A stretch of DNA of 64,000 nucleotides from positions 4,154,001-4,218,000 of the forward strand of contig NZ_CP044532.1 of NCBI RefSeq assembly GCF_026427775.1. Reading direction: 5' to 3'. Made by a program: the position numbers and the translations under genes. Of this stretch, positions 3,743-28,090 are shown piece after piece. Every line of letters begins with the position of its first letter. Position 1 is the stretch's first letter. Under the pieces are notes generated by a model. That model saw only the letters and a program-made list of their open reading frames with translations. It was not told the DNA's origin and ran no database searches. The stretch comes from Arthrobacter sp. CDRTa11 (GTDB taxonomy: Bacteria > Actinomycetota > Actinomycetes > Actinomycetales > Micrococcaceae).

Positions 3743-4567
3743 ATGCACATGCCCGAGGAGAAGTACGTCGCTGTGGTCACCCAGCCGGTCGCGATGCCGC
3801 AGACCGGCGAGGCCGCCTTCTTCGACGTCGACAACACCCTGATGAGGGGTGCCAGCCTGTTCCACGTGGCACGAAAAATGCACCAGCGCGGAGCTTTCAC
3901 GTTCGTACAGGCTGCCGGATTCGCGTGGCAGCAGTTCAAGTTCGTCACCCGCGGGGAGAACATGGATGATGTCCATGCGGTCCGCGATTCCGCCCTCACC
4001 CTCGCTGCCGGCATCACGGTGGAGGACATCAAGGCCCTGGGCGAAGAGGTCTATGACGAAATGATTGCGTCCAGGATCTGGCCCGGCGCCAAGGCCCTGG
4101 CACAGCAGCACCTCCGCGTCGGACGCCGCGTGTGGCTGGTCACCGCCACGCCCATCGAGGTAGCCACCGTCATCTCCACCAGGCTTGGCCTGACCGGCGC
4201 CCTCGGAACTGTGGGCGAGGTCGCCGACGGCATGTACACCGGCCGGCTGGTGGGCGATATCCTGCACGGGTCAGCAAAGGCAGTGGCCGTCCAGGGCATC
4301 GCCGACATCGAAGGACTGGACCTCAAGCGGTGCTGGGCCTACAGCGATTCCTTCAACGACATCCCGCTGCTGACCCTGGTGGGCCACCCCGTGGCCATCA
4401 ATCCGGATTCCAGGCTTAGGCGCCATGCCCGTGACAACAACTGGCCGGTCTACGACTTCCGTTCTGGCCGCCGGGCCGCCACGCTGGGGCTGAAGGCTGC
4501 AACCGCCGGTGGCGCCGTCTACGGCCTCTGGAAAGGCTTCGCCCGCATCCGCGGCCCCCGGGTTTAG
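3743..4567 (+). CDS. HAD-IB family phosphatase (SerB1-like)
   Basis: This is a cytosolic HAD-superfamily hydrolase of subfamily IB. Motif I is FFDVDNTL (nucleophile and acid/base Asp). Motif II is in WLVTATP, and motif III/IV is in YSDSFNDIPLL, where paired Asp residues hold Mg2+. A helical cap lies between motifs I and II, as in phosphoserine phosphatase-like members. Substrate cannot be read from sequence; relatives have been annotated as phosphoserine or lysophospholipid phosphatases. Start choice is uncertain: TTG 3731, ATG 3743 and ATG 3749 are all possible and none has a strong ribosome binding site. It is divergent from the glutaredoxin gene. Confidence 0.88.
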   Translation: MHMPEEKYVAVVTQPVAMPQTGEAAFFDVDNTLMRGASLFHVARKMHQRGAFTFVQAAGFAWQQFKFVTRGENMDDVHAVRDSALTLAAGITVEDIKALGEEVYDEMIASRIWPGAKALAQQHLRVGRRVWLVTATPIEVATVISTRLGLTGALGTVGEVADGMYTGRLVGDILHGSAKAVAVQGIADIEGLDLKRCWAYSDSFNDIPLLTLVGHPVAINPDSRLRRHARDNNWPVYDFRSGRRAATLGLKAATAGGAVYGLWKGFARIRGPRV

Positions 4568-4589
4568 GACCTATCCCACGGATCATAAG

Positions 4590-4634
4590 CTTGTTCGCCA
4601 ATCCGAACCATGACGGTTAGGATTCGCGAACAAG
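4590..4634. repeat. Long imperfect inverted repeat, probable terminator
   Basis: Arms at 4590-4609 and 4615-4634 (20 nt each, two mismatches) enclose a 5-nt loop. The core is cttgttcgcnaatccnaacc. It lies 22 nt after the HAD stop codon and faces the converging bS22 gene, so it probably ends transcription from the left. There is no T-tract. Confidence 0.7.
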
Positions 4635-4659
4635 GCCAGGAAGTTCGAGCAGGTAAACG

Positions 4660-4693
4660 AAATGCCCGCCGCCTCGGAAGGCGACGGGCATTT
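4660..4693 (-). terminator. Terminator of the bS22 gene
   Basis: A 15-bp stem with one mismatch pairs aaatgcccgccgcct (4660-4674) with aggcgacgggcattt (4679-4693). On the minus strand it is 20 nt beyond the bS22 stop and is followed by cgttt. The flanking A/T pairs make it work in either direction. Confidence 0.85.
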
Positions 4694-4713
4694 CTACGCT
4701 GTTCGAAGTATCT

Positions 4714-4812
4714 CTACTTCTTGTTACGGCGCTGGTGACGGGTCTTGCGAAGCAACTTGCGGTGCTTCTTCTTGGCCATACGCTTGCGACGCTTCTTAAT
4801 AACTGAACCCAC
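4714..4812 (-). CDS. Small ribosomal protein bS22 (AURKAIP1/COX24 domain)
   Basis: This 32-residue, very basic protein reads GSVIKKRRKRMAKKKHRKLL, then RKTRHQRRNKK. It is close to the 33-residue mycobacterial protein encoded at Rv0500B, which is seen as an extra 30S subunit protein (bS22). The start is GTG 4812, preceded by aaggaac about 6 nt away. The BldC-like gene lies upstream on the same strand, the same pair order as in mycobacteria. It is easily missed because of its size. The near identity over the whole length makes the call strong. Confidence 0.92.
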   Translation of the reverse strand: MGSVIKKRRKRMAKKKHRKLLRKTRHQRRNKK

Positions 4813-4976
4813 GAAAGTTCCTTACAAACTAGATGCAGTACCTGTCTGATGGAAATGGTCCGTGGACAGAGCTACAGACTGAACAACTGACAGATTCTTA
4901 CAATGACGTAAAACGTTCCTTAACAGGGTACCGCTTATCGGGAGGGCCCACTGACAGCCGCTCCCGGTGCGGCACG

Positions 4977-5189
4977 TCAGGCAGTTTCGGAGTGGCCCTC
5001 CACCACAGCACCCTTAAGGTACTGTTCGACGGCCTTTTCCGGCACCCGGTATGAACGGCCGAAACGCACCGCGGGCATTTCGCCGGAATGAACCAGCCGG
5101 TACACGGTCATTTTGGAGACGCGCATGACCTCGGCCACTTCGGCCACGGTCAGGAACTTCGCGTTGGAGAAGTTCTGTTCTGCGGACAT
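4977..5189 (-). CDS. BldC/excisionase-type helix-turn-helix protein
   Basis: A 70-residue MerR-like winged-helix protein. The core is FLTVAEVAEVMRVSKMTVYR followed by LVHSGEMPAVRFGRSYRVPE, the standard single-domain binding fold of the BldC/Xis group. BldC proteins bind DNA as asymmetric oligomers and control developmental or stress genes in actinobacteria. ATG 5189 was chosen because ggaataggga lies 4 nt upstream. The frame is open to 5273, but that adds no family-like residues. It is upstream of the bS22 gene, as in mycobacteria (Rv0500A). Confidence 0.9.
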   Translation of the reverse strand: MSAEQNFSNAKFLTVAEVAEVMRVSKMTVYRLVHSGEMPAVRFGRSYRVPEKAVEQYLKGAVVEGHSETA

Positions 5190-5330
5190 TTCCCTATTCC
5201 TTTGCTGACGGATGGACAACACTGACCCCAGGTATATGCCATTGCGGTGTGCCGATGCTGAGCCATCCACCAACCATGTGCTAGATACTCTAGAGGTTCA
5301 TGTGGCCATTGTGAAAGTCATGCCGGGTAA

Positions 5331-6458
5331 TCATTTCGCAGTCCGGCGCTTGCGGGCTGACGCCGCCAACTGGTCCAGCACGGAAACCGAGACATCCCAC
5401 TCCATGCAGGCGTCCGTTACGCTCTGCCCGTAGACCAGTCCGGACCGGCCGGCTGCATGCTCGGCCACGTCCAGGTTTTGGGCACCGCCCACCAGGAAAC
5501 TCTCCAGCATGACACCGGCTATGGCCTGTGCGGCCGCTCCCCCGTCCTCAAGCTGCGCCCCGATTTCCAGTGCCACCTCGGCCTGCCGGTGGTGGCTCTT
5601 CCCGCTGTTCGCGTGGCTTGCGTCCACGATCAGCCTTGGGTTCAGGTGCTTGCCGGCGAGCTTCGAGGATGCGGCCTCGACGTCGGCGGAGGAGTAGTTG
5701 GGCCCCTTGCGGCCGCCTCGGAGAATGACGTGGGTGTCTGGGTTCCCTGCGGTGGCCACCAGGGCTGCCCGCCCCTCGCCGTCGATTCCCAGGAAAGCCT
5801 GCGCGGCCGCCGCTGCACCGCAGGCGTCCACCGCCACCTGGAGGTCGCCGTCGGTACCATTCTTGAAGCCGATTGGCATGGACAGCCCGGATGCCAGCTG
5901 GCGGTGGATCTGGCTCTCGGTGGTGCGGGCCCCGATGGCTCCCCAGGAAACCAGGTCTGCCATGTACTGCGGGCTGATGGGTTCAAGGAATTCGGTGGCG
6001 GCGGGGAGCCCCAGTGACGTGACCTGCTGCAGGAAACTGCGTGCCGCGCGGAGCCCGGTGGCCATATCGTGGCTGCCGTCCAGCCGGGGATCGTTGATCA
6101 GGCCCTTCCAGCCAACGGTGGTGCGCGGCTTCTCGAAGTAGGCGCGCATCACGATCAGCAGGTCTTCCTTGTGCTTCTCCGCCTGGCTGACAAGCCGGCG
6201 GGCGTACTCCAGGCCTGCCTTGGGATCGTGGATGGAGCAGGGGCCAACAATCACCAGCAGCCGGTCGTCCACGCCATCCATGATGGCCCGGACTTCATCC
6301 CGTCCGCGCTCGACGACGTCCGTCACCCGGGCGTCCATGGGCAGCTCAGCGATGAGCTCCTGGGGTGTGGGCAGGGCTGTGAACTCGCTGACCCGCAGGT
6401 TGGACGTTGACTTGCCGGTGGGTGTGGTGCCGGTTGTGGCGGCTGTTGCGGTGCTCAT
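5331..6458 (-). CDS. 3-deoxy-7-phosphoheptulonate (DAHP) synthase, class I
   Basis: It catalyses phosphoenolpyruvate plus erythrose 4-phosphate to DAHP, the first step of the shikimate pathway. The 375-residue protein belongs to the AroF/AroG/AroH type, not the plant-like class II type. Landmarks are LLVIVGPCSIHDP near residues 67-80 (PEP site), MRAYFEKPRTTVGWKGLINDP (about 103-123), FKNGTDGD, LRGGRKGPNYS and the metal-binding Asp of LIVDASHANSGK. The first 20 residues are Thr/Ala-rich and not part of the fold. It starts at ATG 6458 after caggacc. A leader peptide and hairpins upstream suggest control by aromatic amino acid supply. The exact paralogue (AroF, G or H) cannot be named. Confidence 0.93.
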   Translation of the reverse strand: MSTATAATTGTTPTGKSTSNLRVSEFTALPTPQELIAELPMDARVTDVVERGRDEVRAIMDGVDDRLLVIVGPCSIHDPKAGLEYARRLVSQAEKHKEDLLIVMRAYFEKPRTTVGWKGLINDPRLDGSHDMATGLRAARSFLQQVTSLGLPAATEFLEPISPQYMADLVSWGAIGARTTESQIHRQLASGLSMPIGFKNGTDGDLQVAVDACGAAAAAQAFLGIDGEGRAALVATAGNPDTHVILRGGRKGPNYSSADVEAASSKLAGKHLNPRLIVDASHANSGKSHHRQAEVALEIGAQLEDGGAAAQAIAGVMLESFLVGGAQNLDVAEHAAGRSGLVYGQSVTDACMEWDVSVSVLDQLAASARKRRTAK

Positions 6459-6519
6459 GGTGGGGTCCTGTTCCAGAAGGGAAGCGGGCCCAGATCAGAA
6501 CCCGCCGAAGAAATGGCGA

Positions 6520-6603
6520 AGGGCAGAGAATGATCTCTGCCCTGTTGGCTCTGAAGGAAAGTTGGATGCGTGTCAGTTAGACGCGGGCCCCTCCAGAGCC
6601 AAC
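6520..6603 (-). promoter_or_regulatory. Predicted attenuator of the DAHP synthase gene
   Basis: In transcript order, a segment inside the leader peptide (6603-6594) is a perfect 10-nt complement of 6553-6544 (gttggctctg with cagagccaac). Directly after it comes a terminator-like hairpin with a perfect 10-bp stem, agggcagaga (6520-6529) with tctctgccct (6534-6543), and a 4-nt loop. A ribosome stalled at the aromatic codons (6620-6606) would cover the first segment. The alternative antiterminator pairing is not resolved by eye. The layout fits transcription attenuation. Confidence 0.7.
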
Positions 6604-6644
6604 GAAAAATACGCATACCAACGGTTAGTCATAGCCAAGACCAT
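6573..6644 (-). CDS. Aromatic-rich leader peptide of the DAHP synthase gene
   Basis: This 23-residue frame runs from ATG 6644 to TGA 6573. It contains TNRWYAYF: Trp, Tyr, Tyr and Phe within five codons at residues 9-13, immediately before the hairpin segments described in the attenuator entry. All three aromatic amino acids are end products of the shikimate pathway that the next gene starts. A g-rich stretch (agggtgggg) precedes ATG 6644; an internal in-frame ATG at 6632 is an alternative start. From memory, an analogous leader (AroR, with Phe-Tyr-Phe) has been described for aroF in Corynebacterium glutamicum. The peptide itself likely has no other role. Confidence 0.78.
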   Translation of the reverse strand: MVLAMTNRWYAYFSLALEGPASN

Positions 6645-6685
6645 AACCCCACCCTGCGGCCACCGCCAAATCCGCCAGTAACATG

Positions 6686-6748
6686 GCGCGAACTGGCAGA
6701 TAATGCCCTCAAATTCCTTGGGAAAGGTCATTACCTGCCAGTTCGCGC
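6686..6748. repeat. Long intergenic inverted repeat with GCGCGAACTG arms
   Basis: Arms 6686-6705 and 6729-6748 are 20 nt with one mismatch; the arm reads gcgcgaactggcagrtaatg. The loop is 23 nt. It lies 21 nt beyond the stop of the esterase gene at 6770, so termination of that operon is the simplest role. Related arms occur at 39660-39701 and 52067-52120. Confidence 0.8.
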
Positions 6749-6769
6749 GGGCTGTTCGTGGGCCGCGCG

Positions 6770-7789
6770 TCAGCCCAGGAGCTTGCGGAGGAACTCCAGC
6801 TGCCTGATCCAGTGGTGTTCCTGGCCGCCCTCATGGTTGTTGAACCGGTACACCTCGATGTCCTTTACCGCCCCGGTGTTTGAAGAGCCGGCCACTCCGG
6901 AACCGTAGGCGTTGAAGCTGGCGAACACGGTCGATGGAGGGCAAATATCGTCCATTTGGGCTGCCGAATACAGTGCCGGAACCGTGGCCGCCCGGGCCAG
7001 GTTGACGCCGTCGAAGTAGTTCAGCACCGCGAGCATTGGCTCGTACCGGTCACGGTGCCGGCCAAGGAAGGCGGCAATTTCCGGGTACGGGCCGCGCGGG
7101 GTGATGTCAATGGCGCGGGGGAAGTCCTGCAGGAACGGGACGTCCGGCAGCGCGGCGATGACGCCGTCGAGCCGTCCGGGCACGAGTCCCGCAACGGCAA
7201 CAACTATGCCGCCGCCCTGGCTGACCCCGGCCAGAACCACCCTGGACGGGTCCACCGCGGGGTGGGACTGGGCGGCCTCCACGGCCCGGAAAGCGTCGAC
7301 GTAGACCCGGCGGTAATAGTAGTCTTCGCGGGTCCCGGCCCCACGGGTCATCAGCCCGGCGTAGGCCACCTCACCGGCGCTCGGGTGGGGGTCGGCCGTC
7401 TCGCCGAGGGTTCCGCCGTAGCCCTGGCCCCGGGTATCCATGATGAAGTGCGCGTAGCCCGCCTGCGCCCACTTGGTGTCCTGGTTGACCAGGCCGCGCC
7501 CGCCGGAATAGCCAACGTAATTGACGACTACGGGCAGCTGTGTTCCGGGCGCGCGGTGCGCCGGGAGGTGCAGCCACCCTTTGATGGGGGCACCGCCGTA
7601 GCCGGCGAAGGTGACGTCGTACGTGTCGATGACCGACAGGTAGTTCTCGACGGGCTCAAAAGTGGCACCAAGGGGAAATATCCGGGCTTCCTCGATAGTG
7701 GCGTCCCAAAAGGCCTGGAAGTCGGCCGGCGGCGTCACTGCGGAGGTGTACCCGCGGAGCTGCTCGAGGGGAAGGTCAAAAAGGGGCAT
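6770..7789 (-). CDS. Acetyl xylan esterase / cephalosporin-C deacetylase family (AXE1, CE7)
   Basis: The 339-residue protein is an alpha/beta-hydrolase of carbohydrate esterase family 7, which removes acetyl groups from sugars and short oligosaccharides inside the cell. Ser190 is in the nucleophile elbow GVSQGGG, Asp280 in AQMDDICPPST, and His319 in NNHEGGQEHHW. The RGQG motif at residues 120-123 is characteristic of the family. There is no signal peptide. It follows rhaB by 137 bp in the same direction, so it probably belongs to the rhamnose operon, although a 13-bp direct repeat in the gap may mark a separate signal. Its substrate is likely an acetylated oligosaccharide, possibly rhamnose-containing. 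Confidence 0.9.
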   Translation of the reverse strand: MPLFDLPLEQLRGYTSAVTPPADFQAFWDATIEEARIFPLGATFEPVENYLSVIDTYDVTFAGYGGAPIKGWLHLPAHRAPGTQLPVVVNYVGYSGGRGLVNQDTKWAQAGYAHFIMDTRGQGYGGTLGETADPHPSAGEVAYAGLMTRGAGTREDYYYRRVYVDAFRAVEAAQSHPAVDPSRVVLAGVSQGGGIVVAVAGLVPGRLDGVIAALPDVPFLQDFPRAIDITPRGPYPEIAAFLGRHRDRYEPMLAVLNYFDGVNLARAATVPALYSAAQMDDICPPSTVFASFNAYGSGVAGSSNTGAVKDIEVYRFNNHEGGQEHHWIRQLEFLRKLLG

Positions 7790-7803
7790 GGTGCAGTCCG
7801 GTC

Positions 7804-7851
7804 CTGTCGGTTCTGGTGGTTGGTTGACCTTGCGGGCTCTGTCGGTTCTGG
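7804..7851. repeat. 13-bp direct repeat upstream of the esterase gene
   Basis: The sequence ctgtcggttctgg occurs at 7804-7816 and 7839-7851, 35 bp apart, in the gap between rhaB and the esterase start. Spacing of three to four helical turns would suit a regulator, but the unit is not palindromic and could be chance or a duplication. Confidence 0.5.
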
Positions 7852-7926
7852 CTACGTTGACTGATCCGCTTCCACATTAAGCGCCAACGAGCACTTGGGG
7901 CCCTATTTGCTGATGTTTTTGGGGCC

Positions 7927-9453
7927 TCAAGTGTTCGTTCGCGCAAGCTGCGGTGCGAACTCCTGCAGCCCGCCAGCATTGGCCACCAGGGCCCGGAGCT
8001 CGGATAGCCCGCCGGAGACAGCCCCGGCCGCCCGGGCCTGGACCAGCACGTTGCCCAGGGCTGTGGCTTCCACCGGGCCTGCCACCACACGCGTTCCGGT
8101 GGCGTCCGCCGTGAGCTGGCAGAGCAGGCGGTTCTGCGAGCCGCCACCCACCACGTGCACCACCTCGACCTGACGGTCCGCCAGCCGTTCCGCCGCTGAA
8201 ATGGCCTTGGCGTAGCCTGCGGCCAGGCTGTCCAGGATGCAGCGGGTGATGGCCGCGGGATGGTCCGCGAGCAGTCCCCCGGCGTTGTGCACCGCGGCCC
8301 GGATGCGTTCGGGCATGTTGTCCGGGGCAATAAAGGACGGATCCTCGGCGTTGATCCTGGGACCGCCCGAAGGCAGCTCCGCGGCTGCCTCCAACAGTTC
8401 CTCCAGGCTTGCCGCGTAGCCCTGGTGGGACCACTCCCGCTGGCATTCGCTCAGGAGCCAGAGCCCGCCCATGTTGCGCAGGTACCGGATGGTGCCGTCC
8501 ACGCCACGTTCATTAGTGAAGTTCGCCTCCCGGCTGGCCTCGGTGAGTACTGGGCGCGGCAGCTCAAGCCCCACCAGCGACCACGTTCCCGAGGAGATGT
8601 AGGCGAAATCTCGCTGCCCCTCTCCCGCTGCCGCGGCAGGGACGGCCGCTACGGCGGACGCTGTGTCGTGCGAGCCCACTGCCACCACCGTCGTTTCCTG
8701 CGGCAACCCCACTTGCCCGGCGATGGCCGGCAGGAGGGTGCCCACAGTTTCACCGGGTTGGATCAGCGGCGGGAAGAGGTCTTTCCGTAGGCCCAGGGCT
8801 GTGAGGAATTCGGTGGCCCACTCCCCTGCGACGGCGTCGAAGAGACCCGTGGTGGAGGCATTGGTGGCCTCGGTCCGCCGAACCCCGGTGAGGAAGAACG
8901 CGATCAGGTCCGGAATGAGCAGTGCCTGCAGCCCGTCCAGGTCCGGTTCGGTGGCCAGCTGGTAGATGGTGTTGAACTGCAGGAACTGCAGGCCGGTGGT
9001 GCCGTAGAGGCGCGCCGGGTCCAGTTTCCGGTGGACCGGTTCGACGGCGGTGCGGCTGCGGTCATCCCGGTAGCTGAAGGGCTGCGCCATCAGTTCCCCT
9101 GCGGCGTTGACCAGCCCATAATCTACTGCCCAGGTGTCGATACCAATGCTCGCCACCTGCTCGCCCTGCGCGGCGGCGACGGTGGACGCCGCCCGGAGGC
9201 CCTCGAGCACCTCAGCAAAAAGGGCGTCGAAGTCCCAGCGGAGGCCGCCGTCGAACTCCACAACGCCATTGGGAAAGCGGTGGACCACTTCGAGCTGCAC
9301 GCTGCCGTCACCGTCGGCGCCGCTGGTGACCCGGCCCAGGATAACCCGGCCTGAAGAGGCACCGATATCGACGGCGGCGAATACCTTGGGGGGCCCTGCG
9401 GAAACTGCCCCGGCCTGGACCGGGGCAGTTTCGTTGGTGCGTTGGGTGCTCAT
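7927..9453 (-). CDS. rhaB: Rhamnulokinase
   Basis: It phosphorylates L-rhamnulose to L-rhamnulose 1-phosphate with ATP. The 508-residue FGGY-family kinase has the N-terminal ATPase motif VDIGASSGRVILGRV (about residues 29-43), SIGIDTWAVDYGLVN near 104-118, VGSHDTASAV near 267, FAYISSGTWSLVG near 292, and VHVVGGGSQNRLLCQ near 455. The order and length match bacterial RhaB. ATG 9453 overlaps the stop of the aldolase gene by 4 nt (ATGA), so the two are translationally coupled. It is the third gene of the rhaI-aldolase-rhaB run. Confidence 0.94.
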   Translation of the reverse strand: MSTQRTNETAPVQAGAVSAGPPKVFAAVDIGASSGRVILGRVTSGADGDGSVQLEVVHRFPNGVVEFDGGLRWDFDALFAEVLEGLRAASTVAAAQGEQVASIGIDTWAVDYGLVNAAGELMAQPFSYRDDRSRTAVEPVHRKLDPARLYGTTGLQFLQFNTIYQLATEPDLDGLQALLIPDLIAFFLTGVRRTEATNASTTGLFDAVAGEWATEFLTALGLRKDLFPPLIQPGETVGTLLPAIAGQVGLPQETTVVAVGSHDTASAVAAVPAAAAGEGQRDFAYISSGTWSLVGLELPRPVLTEASREANFTNERGVDGTIRYLRNMGGLWLLSECQREWSHQGYAASLEELLEAAAELPSGGPRINAEDPSFIAPDNMPERIRAAVHNAGGLLADHPAAITRCILDSLAAGYAKAISAAERLADRQVEVVHVVGGGSQNRLLCQLTADATGTRVVAGPVEATALGNVLVQARAAGAVSGGLSELRALVANAGGLQEFAPQLARTNT

Positions 9454-26074: not shown

Positions 26075-28090
26075 ATGACTTTGCAGCAAACCCCTGGCCC
26101 GGAGAGTGTTTGGAGCAAGGTGGAAGGGATCGCCTACGGCGGCGATTACAACCCCGAGCAGTGGCCTCAGAGCGTCCGGCTTGAAGACCTGGAATTGATG
26201 AAGGAAGCCGGCGTTACCTTCCTCAGCGTGGGGATCTTTTCCTGGGCCCTTCTGGAACCGACCGAAGGCACGTACGACTTCGGCTGGCTGGACGAGGTGA
26301 TGGACAACCTTGCATCCGCGGGAATCAGAGTAGCCCTGGCAACGGCAACCGCTGCTCCCCCGGCCTGGCTGGTGCGCAAGCATCCGGAAATCCTGCCGGT
26401 GACGGCTGACGGGACCGTGCTGGGACCCGGATCGCGGCGGCACTACACGCCGTCGTCGGCTGTTTACAGGCGGTATGCAACGGGCATCACCCGCGTCATC
26501 GCGGAGAGGTACAAGGAGCACCCGGCGTTGGCGCTGTGGCACGTGGACAACGAGCTGGGCTGCCATGTCAGTGAGTTCTACGGGCCGGAGGACGCCGCTG
26601 CCTTCCGGGCCTGGCTGGAGCGGCGGCACGGAAGCATCTCCGCCCTCAACGCCGCCTGGGGAACTGCATTCTGGTCGCAAAACTACGGATCCTTCGACGA
26701 AATCCTCCCGCCCGGAGCGGCGCCCTCCACCCTGAATCCAGGGCAGCAGCTGGACTTCAAGCGGTTCAGCTCCTGGGCGTTGATGGACTACTACTGTGAA
26801 CTCGTCGCGGTCCTGCGGGAGGTCACGCCGGGCACTCCGGCCACCACCAACCTGATGGCATCGAGCGGCTGCAAGGCATTGGACTACTTCGACTGGGCCA
26901 AGGACCTGGATGTCATCGCCAACGACCACTACCTGGTGGCTGAGGATCCGGAACGGCACATCGAGCTGGCGTTCAGCGCGGACCTGACCCGGGGAATTGC
27001 AGGCGGTGACCCGTGGATCCTGATGGAACATTCCACGTCGGCCGTCAACTGGCAGCCACGCAACCAGCCCAAGATGCCCGGCGAGATGCTGCGCAATTCG
27101 CTGGCGCACGTGGCACGCGGCGCGGACGCTGTGATGTTCTTCCAGTGGCGCCAGAGCTTTGCGGGTTCGGAGAAATTCCATTCGGCGATGGTGCCGCACG
27201 CCGGACGCGATACGCGGGTGTTCCGGGAGGTGGTGGGCTTGGGTGCCGCGCTGAAGCAATTGGCTCCGGTCCGGGGCTCACGGGTGGAGTCCCAGGTGGC
27301 CATCGTGTTCGATTACGAAGCGTGGTGGGCCAGCGAAATCGACTCCAAACCGAGCCAGGATGTTAAGTACCTGGACCTGCTCAGGGCTTTCCACCGGTCA
27401 CTTTTCCTGCGGGGGATCTCGGTGGACATCGTGCATCCTTCTGCGTCGCTGGAGGGCTACAGCCTTGTTCTTGTCTGCACGCTGTACTCCGTCAGTGATG
27501 CCGCTGCCGCGAATATTGCGGACGCCGCGCGCGCCGGGGCCACCGTCCTCATCACCTATTTCAGCGGAATCGCGGATGAGAACGACCACGTCAGGTTGGG
27601 CGGCTACCCTGGTGCTTTCCGCGAGCTCCTGGGCGTTCGCGTGGAGGAATTCCACCCACTGCTGCAGGGGGTTCAGCTGAAGTTGAGCGATGGCGGGCTG
27701 TCTTCTGTGTGGAGCGAACATGTCCAGCTGGCGGGGGCCGAAGCGGTTCAGACTTTCACCCAATACCCGTTGGAGGATGTCCCGTCACTGACGCGGAACA
27801 CCGTTGGCGACGGCGCGGCCTGGTACTTGGCCACATTCCCGGACCCCGACGGCATCGAGGCGATCGTGGACCGGCTGGTAGCTGAATCCGGTGTGGCAGC
27901 CGCTGCCTCCGCGGATGCCGGTGTGGAACTGACCCGCCGCCGTGCTGATGACGGCCGCAGTTTCCTGTTCGCCATCAACCACTCACAGTCTTCGGCCACG
28001 GTGCACGCATCCGGACTTGACCTGCTCACGGGAGATCGATTTGGGGGCAGCGTTTCGGCTGGAAGCGTTGCGGTGATCGCGGAGGACTAA
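26075..28090 (+). CDS. Beta-galactosidase, GH42
   Basis: The 671-residue enzyme is a GH42 beta-galactosidase. Residues 1 to about 390 are the catalytic TIM barrel: YGGDYNPEQWP at 21-31, the acid/base Glu160 in LWHVDNELG, and the nucleophile Glu318 in PWILMEHSTSAVNW. A trimerisation domain follows (about 400-600, with VAIVFDYEAWWASE), then a small beta-rich domain at the C-terminus. There is no signal peptide. It is divergent from the ABC operon, with LacI-type sites between. It probably removes beta-galactose from imported galactan or rhamnogalacturonan side-chain oligosaccharides. Confidence 0.95.
   Translation: MTLQQTPGPESVWSKVEGIAYGGDYNPEQWPQSVRLEDLELMKEAGVTFLSVGIFSWALLEPTEGTYDFGWLDEVMDNLASAGIRVALATATAAPPAWLVRKHPEILPVTADGTVLGPGSRRHYTPSSAVYRRYATGITRVIAERYKEHPALALWHVDNELGCHVSEFYGPEDAAAFRAWLERRHGSISALNAAWGTAFWSQNYGSFDEILPPGAAPSTLNPGQQLDFKRFSSWALMDYYCELVAVLREVTPGTPATTNLMASSGCKALDYFDWAKDLDVIANDHYLVAEDPERHIELAFSADLTRGIAGGDPWILMEHSTSAVNWQPRNQPKMPGEMLRNSLAHVARGADAVMFFQWRQSFAGSEKFHSAMVPHAGRDTRVFREVVGLGAALKQLAPVRGSRVESQVAIVFDYEAWWASEIDSKPSQDVKYLDLLRAFHRSLFLRGISVDIVHPSASLEGYSLVLVCTLYSVSDAAAANIADAARAGATVLITYFSGIADENDHVRLGGYPGAFRELLGVRVEEFHPLLQGVQLKLSDGGLSSVWSEHVQLAGAEAVQTFTQYPLEDVPSLTRNTVGDGAAWYLATFPDPDGIEAIVDRLVAESGVAAAASADAGVELTRRRADDGRSFLFAINHSQSSATVHASGLDLLTGDRFGGSVSAGSVAVIAED

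Follow-up and report, generated by a model that had tools for sequence, protein, structure and literature searches.

The synthesis of all aromatic amino acids begins with DAHP synthase, and actinobacteria are industrial producers of these amino acids. In the stretch of Arthrobacter sp. CDRTa11 DNA analyzed here (64,000 nucleotides, hereafter the window), a class I DAHP synthase gene is directly preceded by a short open reading frame (ORF) with aromatic codons, as is the case for the AroR leader of Corynebacterium glutamicum. This arrangement raises the questions of what the leader reads, in which lineages it is kept, and by which route its reading could reach the gene. The gene matches its profile with 472 bits against a cut-off of 173.2. 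The leader and the gene comprise the following features.

6640..6645, minus strand: candidate -10 hexamer TATGGT, 7 nt 5' of the leader ATG and containing the ATG at 6644
6573..6632, minus strand: putative leaderless leader ORF of 19 codons, MTNRWYAYFSLALEGPASN, with stop codon TGA at 6575-6573
6606..6620, minus strand: control codons TGG TAT GCG TAT TTT (Trp-Tyr-Ala-Tyr-Phe), from the sequence and codon counts
6463..6470, minus strand: Shine-Dalgarno (SD) region of the DAHP synthase gene, CAGGACCC, from the sequence and swap tests
5331..6458, minus strand: class I DAHP synthase gene (TIGR00034, aroFGH), 375 amino acids, from a profile match

The first-pass annotation of this DNA had described a 23-codon frame at 6644-6573 with aromatic codons. 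This minus-strand frame exists (translation, MVLAMTNRWYAYFSLALEGPASN) and contains the RWYAYF codons, but its start did not hold up. Since the ATG at 6644 belongs to the -10 box TATGGT, it was rejected as the leader start; the peptide most likely starts at 6632, with 19 codons, on a transcript that is probably leaderless. The actinobacterial -10 consensus is TAnnnT, with a mean of 6.3 nt to the start site in Streptomyces lividans, where several leader peptides are described as leaderless (PMC8079986). All 127 leaders examined have a TAnnnT hexamer 6-8 nt 5' of their start (126 before the start of one, L099, was shifted by one codon), compared with 67 of 22,671 control upstream positions. The distance from hexamer to start is 6 nt in 60 leaders, 7 nt in 63, and 8 nt in four, and only one of the 127 has an SD-like motif before its start. 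Among named loci, the hexamer is found at the proper distance from the chosen start in 14 of 18 aromatic leaders.

The aromatic amino acids encoded by the leader are mostly kept as a set rather than in a fixed order. Trp, Tyr, and Phe all occur within residues 2-14 in 131 of 141 leaders (Trp in 136, Tyr in 141, Phe in 136), and their order varies between families, with RWYAYF, RWYWRF, RYWF, RWFTYA, YWRF, and YFWF all represented. Rare variants include CWQAYF (L053), QWYAYF (L072), RWYANF (L046), and RRFIY without Trp (L098). Measured against the 34 long ORFs of the window, the leaders favor the rarer synonym at their control codons: TAT outnumbers TAC by 229 to 2 and TTT outnumbers TTC by 131 to 7 in the leaders, whereas the long ORFs have 46 TAT to 288 TAC and 93 TTT to 445 TTC. 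It is well supported by these comparisons that the predicted peptide senses the supply of Trp-, Tyr-, and Phe-tRNA jointly. The first-pass annotation had already proposed such joint sensing, which is borne out by the retention of all three residues despite changes of order and by the use of rarer codons. The varied order and the codon choice fit a mechanism in which charged tRNAs are sensed through slow codons, not a specific arrest peptide.

All 30 same-genus loci read have the leader element in nearly unchanged form, two of them having been recognized by eye outside the search pattern. One same-genus leader (L090, genome G177) has an extra base within the codons of segment 2 (listed below), so that its downstream frame differs while its aromatic codons are intact. 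Class I DAHP synthase occurs in 61 of 149 genomes and 14 of 31 genera of the window's family, and the leader is present in all 86 DAHP synthase loci read there, i.e., the 30 same-genus loci and 56 others. Beyond the 30, 60 regions were taken, 56 from the family (55 by script, L053 separately) and four from outside it; among the latter, the leaders of L085 (family f13) and L086 (family f8) are divergent, whereas L087 and L088 (both family f4) have no leader upstream of the gene. Across the order, the synthase is found in 78 of 297 genomes and the leader in 39 of 40 further regions, with L092, L097, L098, L101, and L109 scored by eye and L130 (f4) as the sole exception. Across the class, the synthase is found in 52 of 246 genomes and the leader in 14 of 20 regions taken from 48 new places (L225 scored by eye), distributed as seven of seven in f36, six of six in f22, one of one in f48, and none of six in f33. 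The leader is present in seven families of the class besides the window's own. Conservation in relatives had been set beforehand as one of two points on which the first-pass reading would stand or fall; the aromatic codons and the hairpin before the gene are both kept.

When 24 of 80 named loci were read, an aromatic leader was found in 18 and was absent from six, one of which (L148) has only 145 upstream bases. Named carriers include Arthrobacter, Isoptericola, Puerhibacterium, a Microbacterium MAG, Dietzia, Williamsia, Rhodococcus, Pseudonocardia, Amycolatopsis, Paractinoplanes, and mycobacteria. An RNA model was built from 33 leaders, of which the searched family contributed 18. Run against 148 genomes of that family, it gave 60 strong matches (92 bits or more), all of them adjoining a class I DAHP synthase gene; the next match scored 28.1 bits. 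In the own genome, the single strong match (131.4 bits) is at this locus, and no second copy of the leader was found, the next match scoring 15.1 bits. The leader counts above leave out six same-genus DAHP synthase loci and four family loci, the latter four being strong matches to the model. The L061 leader (genome G205) is absent from the matches, and G205 may not have been among the 148 genomes. Twelve weak matches (22-28 bits) lie elsewhere in the family. Seven were inspected and rejected as leaders: three are at tRNA genes with a hairpin behind them, and the other four, some of which are hairpins, lack an aromatic leader ORF. One of the five remaining corresponds to the reverse strand of a leader included above. 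A search of window positions 4000-9000 with Rfam 15 gave no family above its gathering cut-off, the two matches with E<1 both belonging to one microRNA family and lying far below it, and the leader peptide has no match in NCBIfam or Pfam.

The RNA between leader and gene contains several segments with more than one possible partner.

6611..6622, minus strand: segment 1, GTTGGTATGCGT, complementary to segment 3 apart from one bulged T
6590..6603, minus strand: segment 2, GTTGGCTCTGGAGG, pairing with segment 4
6561..6571, minus strand: segment 3, ACGCATCCAAC, partner of segment 1
6544..6557, minus strand: segment 4, CCTTCAGAGCCAAC, pairing with segment 2 or segment 6
6520..6543, minus strand: hairpin T1, 10 bp, loop TCAT, tail TCGCCATTTC without a U-run, from the sequence and covariation
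6503..6518, minus strand: small hairpin H5, CGCC ... GGCG, directly 5' of segment 6, from swap tests and covariation
6495..6502, minus strand: segment 6, GGTTCTGA, an imperfect second copy of GGCTCTGG in segment 2
6484..6491, minus strand: segment 7, GGGCCCGC, pairing with GCGGG (6505-6501) or with the SD region

Two of these structures had been noticed at first pass. The 10-nt perfect complement is present, GTTGGCTCTG (6603-6594) being the exact reverse complement of CAGAGCCAAC (6553-6544), and it lengthens to 14 pairs with one G-U (6603-6590 with 6557-6544); the 10-bp hairpin before the gene is perfect and lies at 6543-6520. The structure of the leader is not due to chance. The 177-nt RNA that runs from 6632 to the start codon of the gene has a folding energy of -74.1 kcal/mol, compared with -51.8 for shuffled sequences (z -5.45; none of 200 as stable), and adding 28 more upstream bases gives z -5.65. 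Segment 6 can pair with segment 4, with segment 7 (together with the preceding GGCGGG), or, in the window, with the SD region. The window's own 7:SD helix has a mismatch, and segment 6 can pair there instead (GGGTTCTG with CAGGACCC). Several of these helices exclude one another: 1:3 excludes 2:4, 2:4 excludes 4:6, 4:6 excludes 6:7, and 6:7 excludes 7:SD.

Which of the possible helices are selected was addressed by a swap test, in which same-genus partners were compared with partners swapped between genera for the 55 pairs of 11 segments. The sample comprised 49 of the 86 family leaders from 14 genera, and segment borders were set after viewing the alignment; the p-values ignore phylogeny and are calibrated by the remaining pairs of each test. 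Six pairs reach the permutation floor (p=0.00025), namely 2:4, T1, H5, 4:6, 6:7, and 7:SD. The next are H5a with segment 6, which overlaps H5b (p=0.0007), and 4:T1b (p=0.0085). Segment 6 shows no co-evolution with the SD region in the family (p=0.31). Segment 1 shows too little variation for the swap test to inform on 1:3; against shuffles, this helix has a mean z of -2.07 and is negative in 12 of 14 genera and positive in g40 and g52. In 55 sequences from 26 genera outside the family, where three of the six pairs were examined, all three, 2:4 (p=0.00025), 4:6 (p=0.0037), and 7:SD (p=0.002), recur, as does segment 2 with the SD region (p=0.004), while eight other pairs have p-values of 0.09-0.999. 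Two doubtful DAHP synthase starts (L221, L227) were kept in this second test, and segments 6 and 7 were represented by windows rather than exact segments.

Covariation was counted for two sets of helices. In the structure made of 2:4, T1, and 6:7, 95.6% of cells are paired, and both sides have changed in 12 of 29 pairs (7.5 in shuffles) and in 78 cells (19.4 in shuffles); for 4:6, T1, and H5, the corresponding values are 10 of 21 pairs (5.9) and 70 cells (17.2). These changes are distributed unevenly, with six of nine pairs in T1, five in 6:7, three of four in H5, one of 14 in 2:4, and one of eight in 4:6. Segments 2 and 4 are paired in 98.3% of cells. Further pair types are barely above shuffles, 22 and 204 of 500 of which reach them. 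RNAalifold predicts 2:4, T1, and 6:7 from the same alignment. The last helix of the series can also be read directly from the sequences, as GTCCCG/CGGGAC in g52, GGGTCC/GGACCC in g40 and f11, GGGGGCC/GGCCCCC in g43, CGGATC/GATCCG in g50, and GGCTCC/GGAGCC in f8; it is weak in genus g45. Taken together, the co-evolving pairs suggest a chain of mutually exclusive helices that ends on the SD region.

Since the chain ends there, the output is probably translation, a point with moderate support. On this basis, the leader would read charged Trp-, Tyr-, and Phe-tRNA, reset the fold downstream, and control DAHP synthase through a relay to the SD region, a reading to which we give an even chance. When aromatic amino acids are ample, the ribosome would clear the leader and 1:3 could form; segment 4 would then be left for segment 6, enclosing T1 and H5, and segment 7 would cover the SD region (off). 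When Trp, Tyr, or Phe is short, the ribosome would stall over segment 1, allowing 2:4 to form, 6:7 to pair, and the SD region to remain free (on). T1 may contribute as well, either as a partial terminator or as a pause site that gives the ribosome time to decide before segment 6 is made. We infer that the switch most likely raises DAHP synthase when Trp, Tyr, and Phe are short; for starvation to have this effect, a stall over segment 1 must favor 2:4, hence 6:7 and an open SD region. A segment that pairs with the SD region and has an alternative partner is present: within the family, both 7:SD and 6:7 reach the floor, and outside it 7:SD has p=0.002. The wider proposal is that of an RNA switch spread over much of the actinobacterial class, in which a leaderless, rare-codon peptide integrates three shikimate end products and a helix domino (1:3, 2:4, 4:6 closing a three-way junction, 6:7, and 7:SD) sets DAHP synthase translation; its probability falls somewhat short of even.

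Model folds agree with parts of the relay and complicate others. A ribosome at Trp5 or Tyr6 leaves segment 2 free, in agreement with the starvation-on sign. The model value of 2:4 is 0.93 with the ribosome at Trp5 or Tyr6, 0.5 at Tyr8, 0.77 at the stop codon, and 0 at Phe9, this last value being partly due to construction, as the measure uses positions covered by the Phe9 footprint. Without a ribosome, 2:4 is already dominant (0.81), except in genera g28 and g40. The ribosome at Phe9 favors 4:6 (0.95 over 86 sequences), which is opposite to Trp5. In line with the chain, blocking segment 2 leads to 4:6, and 7:SD pairing then increases in 13 of 14 genera. The mean openness of the SD region is nearly equal with segment 2 free or blocked (0.32 and 0.33 in the window's genus), because in the 2:4 state other partners take the SD region; the folds thus leave it covered in either state. 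The cost of opening it has the predicted sign in eight of 14 genera and 50 of 86 sequences and is near zero in the window's genus.

Among the other readings of this locus, the one first proposed for it was classical transcription attenuation, in which T1 is a terminator and a stalled ribosome prevents its formation through an antiterminator. Several features speak for it: T1 is conserved in alignments and covaries, and U-runs follow it in genus g41, Williamsia, and Paractinoplanes. AroR of C. glutamicum is likewise treated as transcription attenuation (PMC11802643; PMC6892785), or as possibly so (PMC3890552). T1's CCTTCG-type tail is shared by hairpins behind three tRNA genes in family genomes. 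These hairpins (L255, L256, and L257, from genera g35, g31, and g24) immediately follow their tRNA genes, of which two are tRNA-Ala and one is tRNA-Leu. Their GC stems are long, they have no U-run, and they suggest what terminators of the family look like. In the window, however, a U-tailed terminator had to be rejected, as no intrinsic terminator was found before the gene and no U-run follows T1. An antiterminator against T1 was rejected as well; no segment other than its own partner reaches the floor with either T1 arm, 4:T1b being the best, and the co-evolving network ends on the SD region rather than on T1. Attenuation at the 10-bp hairpin, as originally suggested, is less likely than the relay, although T1 could be a partial terminator or pause site.

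For the window's genus at least, a second alternative retains the helices and reverses their sign. When amino acids are plentiful, 2:4 would form and segment 6 would cover the SD region, whereas a ribosome stalled at Tyr8 or Phe9 would mask segment 2, leaving segment 4 to pair with segment 6 and allowing translation. The best fold of the window's transcript does combine 2:4 with segment 6 on the SD region (6:SD, 0.71), which would reverse the sign there, and a stall at Phe9 gives 4:6 and raises the openness of the window's SD region from 0.23 to 0.62. Against this, 6:SD lacks the co-evolution that 7:SD shows, and blocking segment 2 in the window leads 7:SD to cover the SD region in the model (0.65). 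Moreover, segment 2 stays free when the ribosome stands at Trp5, which is where Trp most often occurs. The reversed switch is improbable, and the starvation-on relay is preferred to it.

Action of the peptide itself, as an arrest peptide or in trans, has a precedent in peTrpL of Sinorhizobium, a leader peptide reported to act itself, and would account for a peptide that is nearly identical within the family. The third positions of leader codons 4-16 are, however, identical in all pairs of the 30 same-genus loci, compared with 66% in DAHP synthase (200 codons), and the stretch from -60 to -16 is 38% identical among the same loci. Because third positions are as frozen as the others, the nucleotides, and not the peptide alone, are under selection. 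In addition, the aromatic order is permuted between families (RWYAYF, RWYWRF, RYWF, YFWF, RWFTYA), which a specific arrest sequence could hardly tolerate, leaving this explanation very improbable. An RNA that binds a ligand or protein, with an incidental ORF, would suit the near-invariant nucleotides and compact helix set, but it is scarcely credible given that families differing in nucleotides share the start codon, the frame, and the Trp, Tyr, and Phe codons, and that no Rfam family matches.

The proposed relay through the SD region shares parts with known leader systems. In the E. coli trp operon attenuator, control codons lie in segment 1 and exclusive helices follow downstream. Both features are found here; in contrast to that system, the window has no U-run terminator, and no antiterminator against T1 was found. 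In translational attenuators of the ermC type, a ribosome stalled on the leader shifts exclusive helices and frees the SD region, which is also what is proposed here. Such attenuators respond to antibiotics and have four segments, whereas the putative switch described here would respond to aminoacyl-tRNA supply through a longer chain with two embedded hairpins.

The LEU element upstream of leuA in Actinobacteria, in which leucine codons pair with the SD region (Seliverstov 2005, PMC1262725), resembles the present leader, as described there, in having a leader peptide, no obvious terminator, and alternative structures that involve the SD region of the gene. The same source reports no conserved RNA structure upstream of actinobacterial phenylalanine and tyrosine operons (PMC1262725). 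Unlike the codons of the LEU element, segment 1 shows no co-evolution with the SD region (p=0.19 and 0.20 in the family, 0.26 outside it), and pairing of the control codons with the SD region was rejected. The nearest known system is AroR, a Phe-Tyr-Phe leader upstream of aroF in C. glutamicum that is described as derepressed under Phe limitation and as having no response to Tyr (Mentz 2013, PMC4046766; PMC11802643), and that one source calls a translational regulatory leader peptide (PMC7356990). Both are short leader ORFs with aromatic codons upstream of an actinobacterial DAHP synthase gene, and common descent is likely, AroR being compared by its description alone. As had been suspected, the present form differs from AroR: the Phe-Tyr-Phe codons are absent and Trp-Tyr-Ala-Tyr-Phe takes their place, with Trp included and rarer codons used. 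The passages on AroR in these sources describe no SD relay. In the titles and abstract openings of a literature in which few subscription journals are represented, no account was found of the Trp-Tyr-Phe leader form or of the helix relay.

The element looks like a shared control of pathway entry across several families. It makes testable how one leader may weigh three end products, whether rare U-ending codons tune sensing, and how a leader peptide may reach the SD region through a chain of helices. Its removal is an obvious step for producer strains, as with aroR, which has been removed in C. glutamicum (PMC7356990).

In family f4, no aromatic leader was found in three upstream regions from two genomes, and 19 of the 21 genomes with a DAHP synthase match have two class I genes; one f8 genome (G432) has three. 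In another genome of the window's genus, the synthase matches in two pieces overlapping by ten bases (G029:C1:3085911-3087004), possibly a frameshift. A class II DAHP synthase (PF01474, 665 bits) lies elsewhere in the own genome (G000:C1:1889851-1891143), and inspection by eye of the 400 bases preceding that match revealed no aromatic leader. The protein encoded in the window behind the class I gene (4977-5273, minus strand) is small, of the excisionase DNA-binding type, and weakly matches BldC. The window's only tRNA gene, a selenocysteine tRNA (anticodon tca) called by ARAGORN, lies on the minus strand at 27910-27982.
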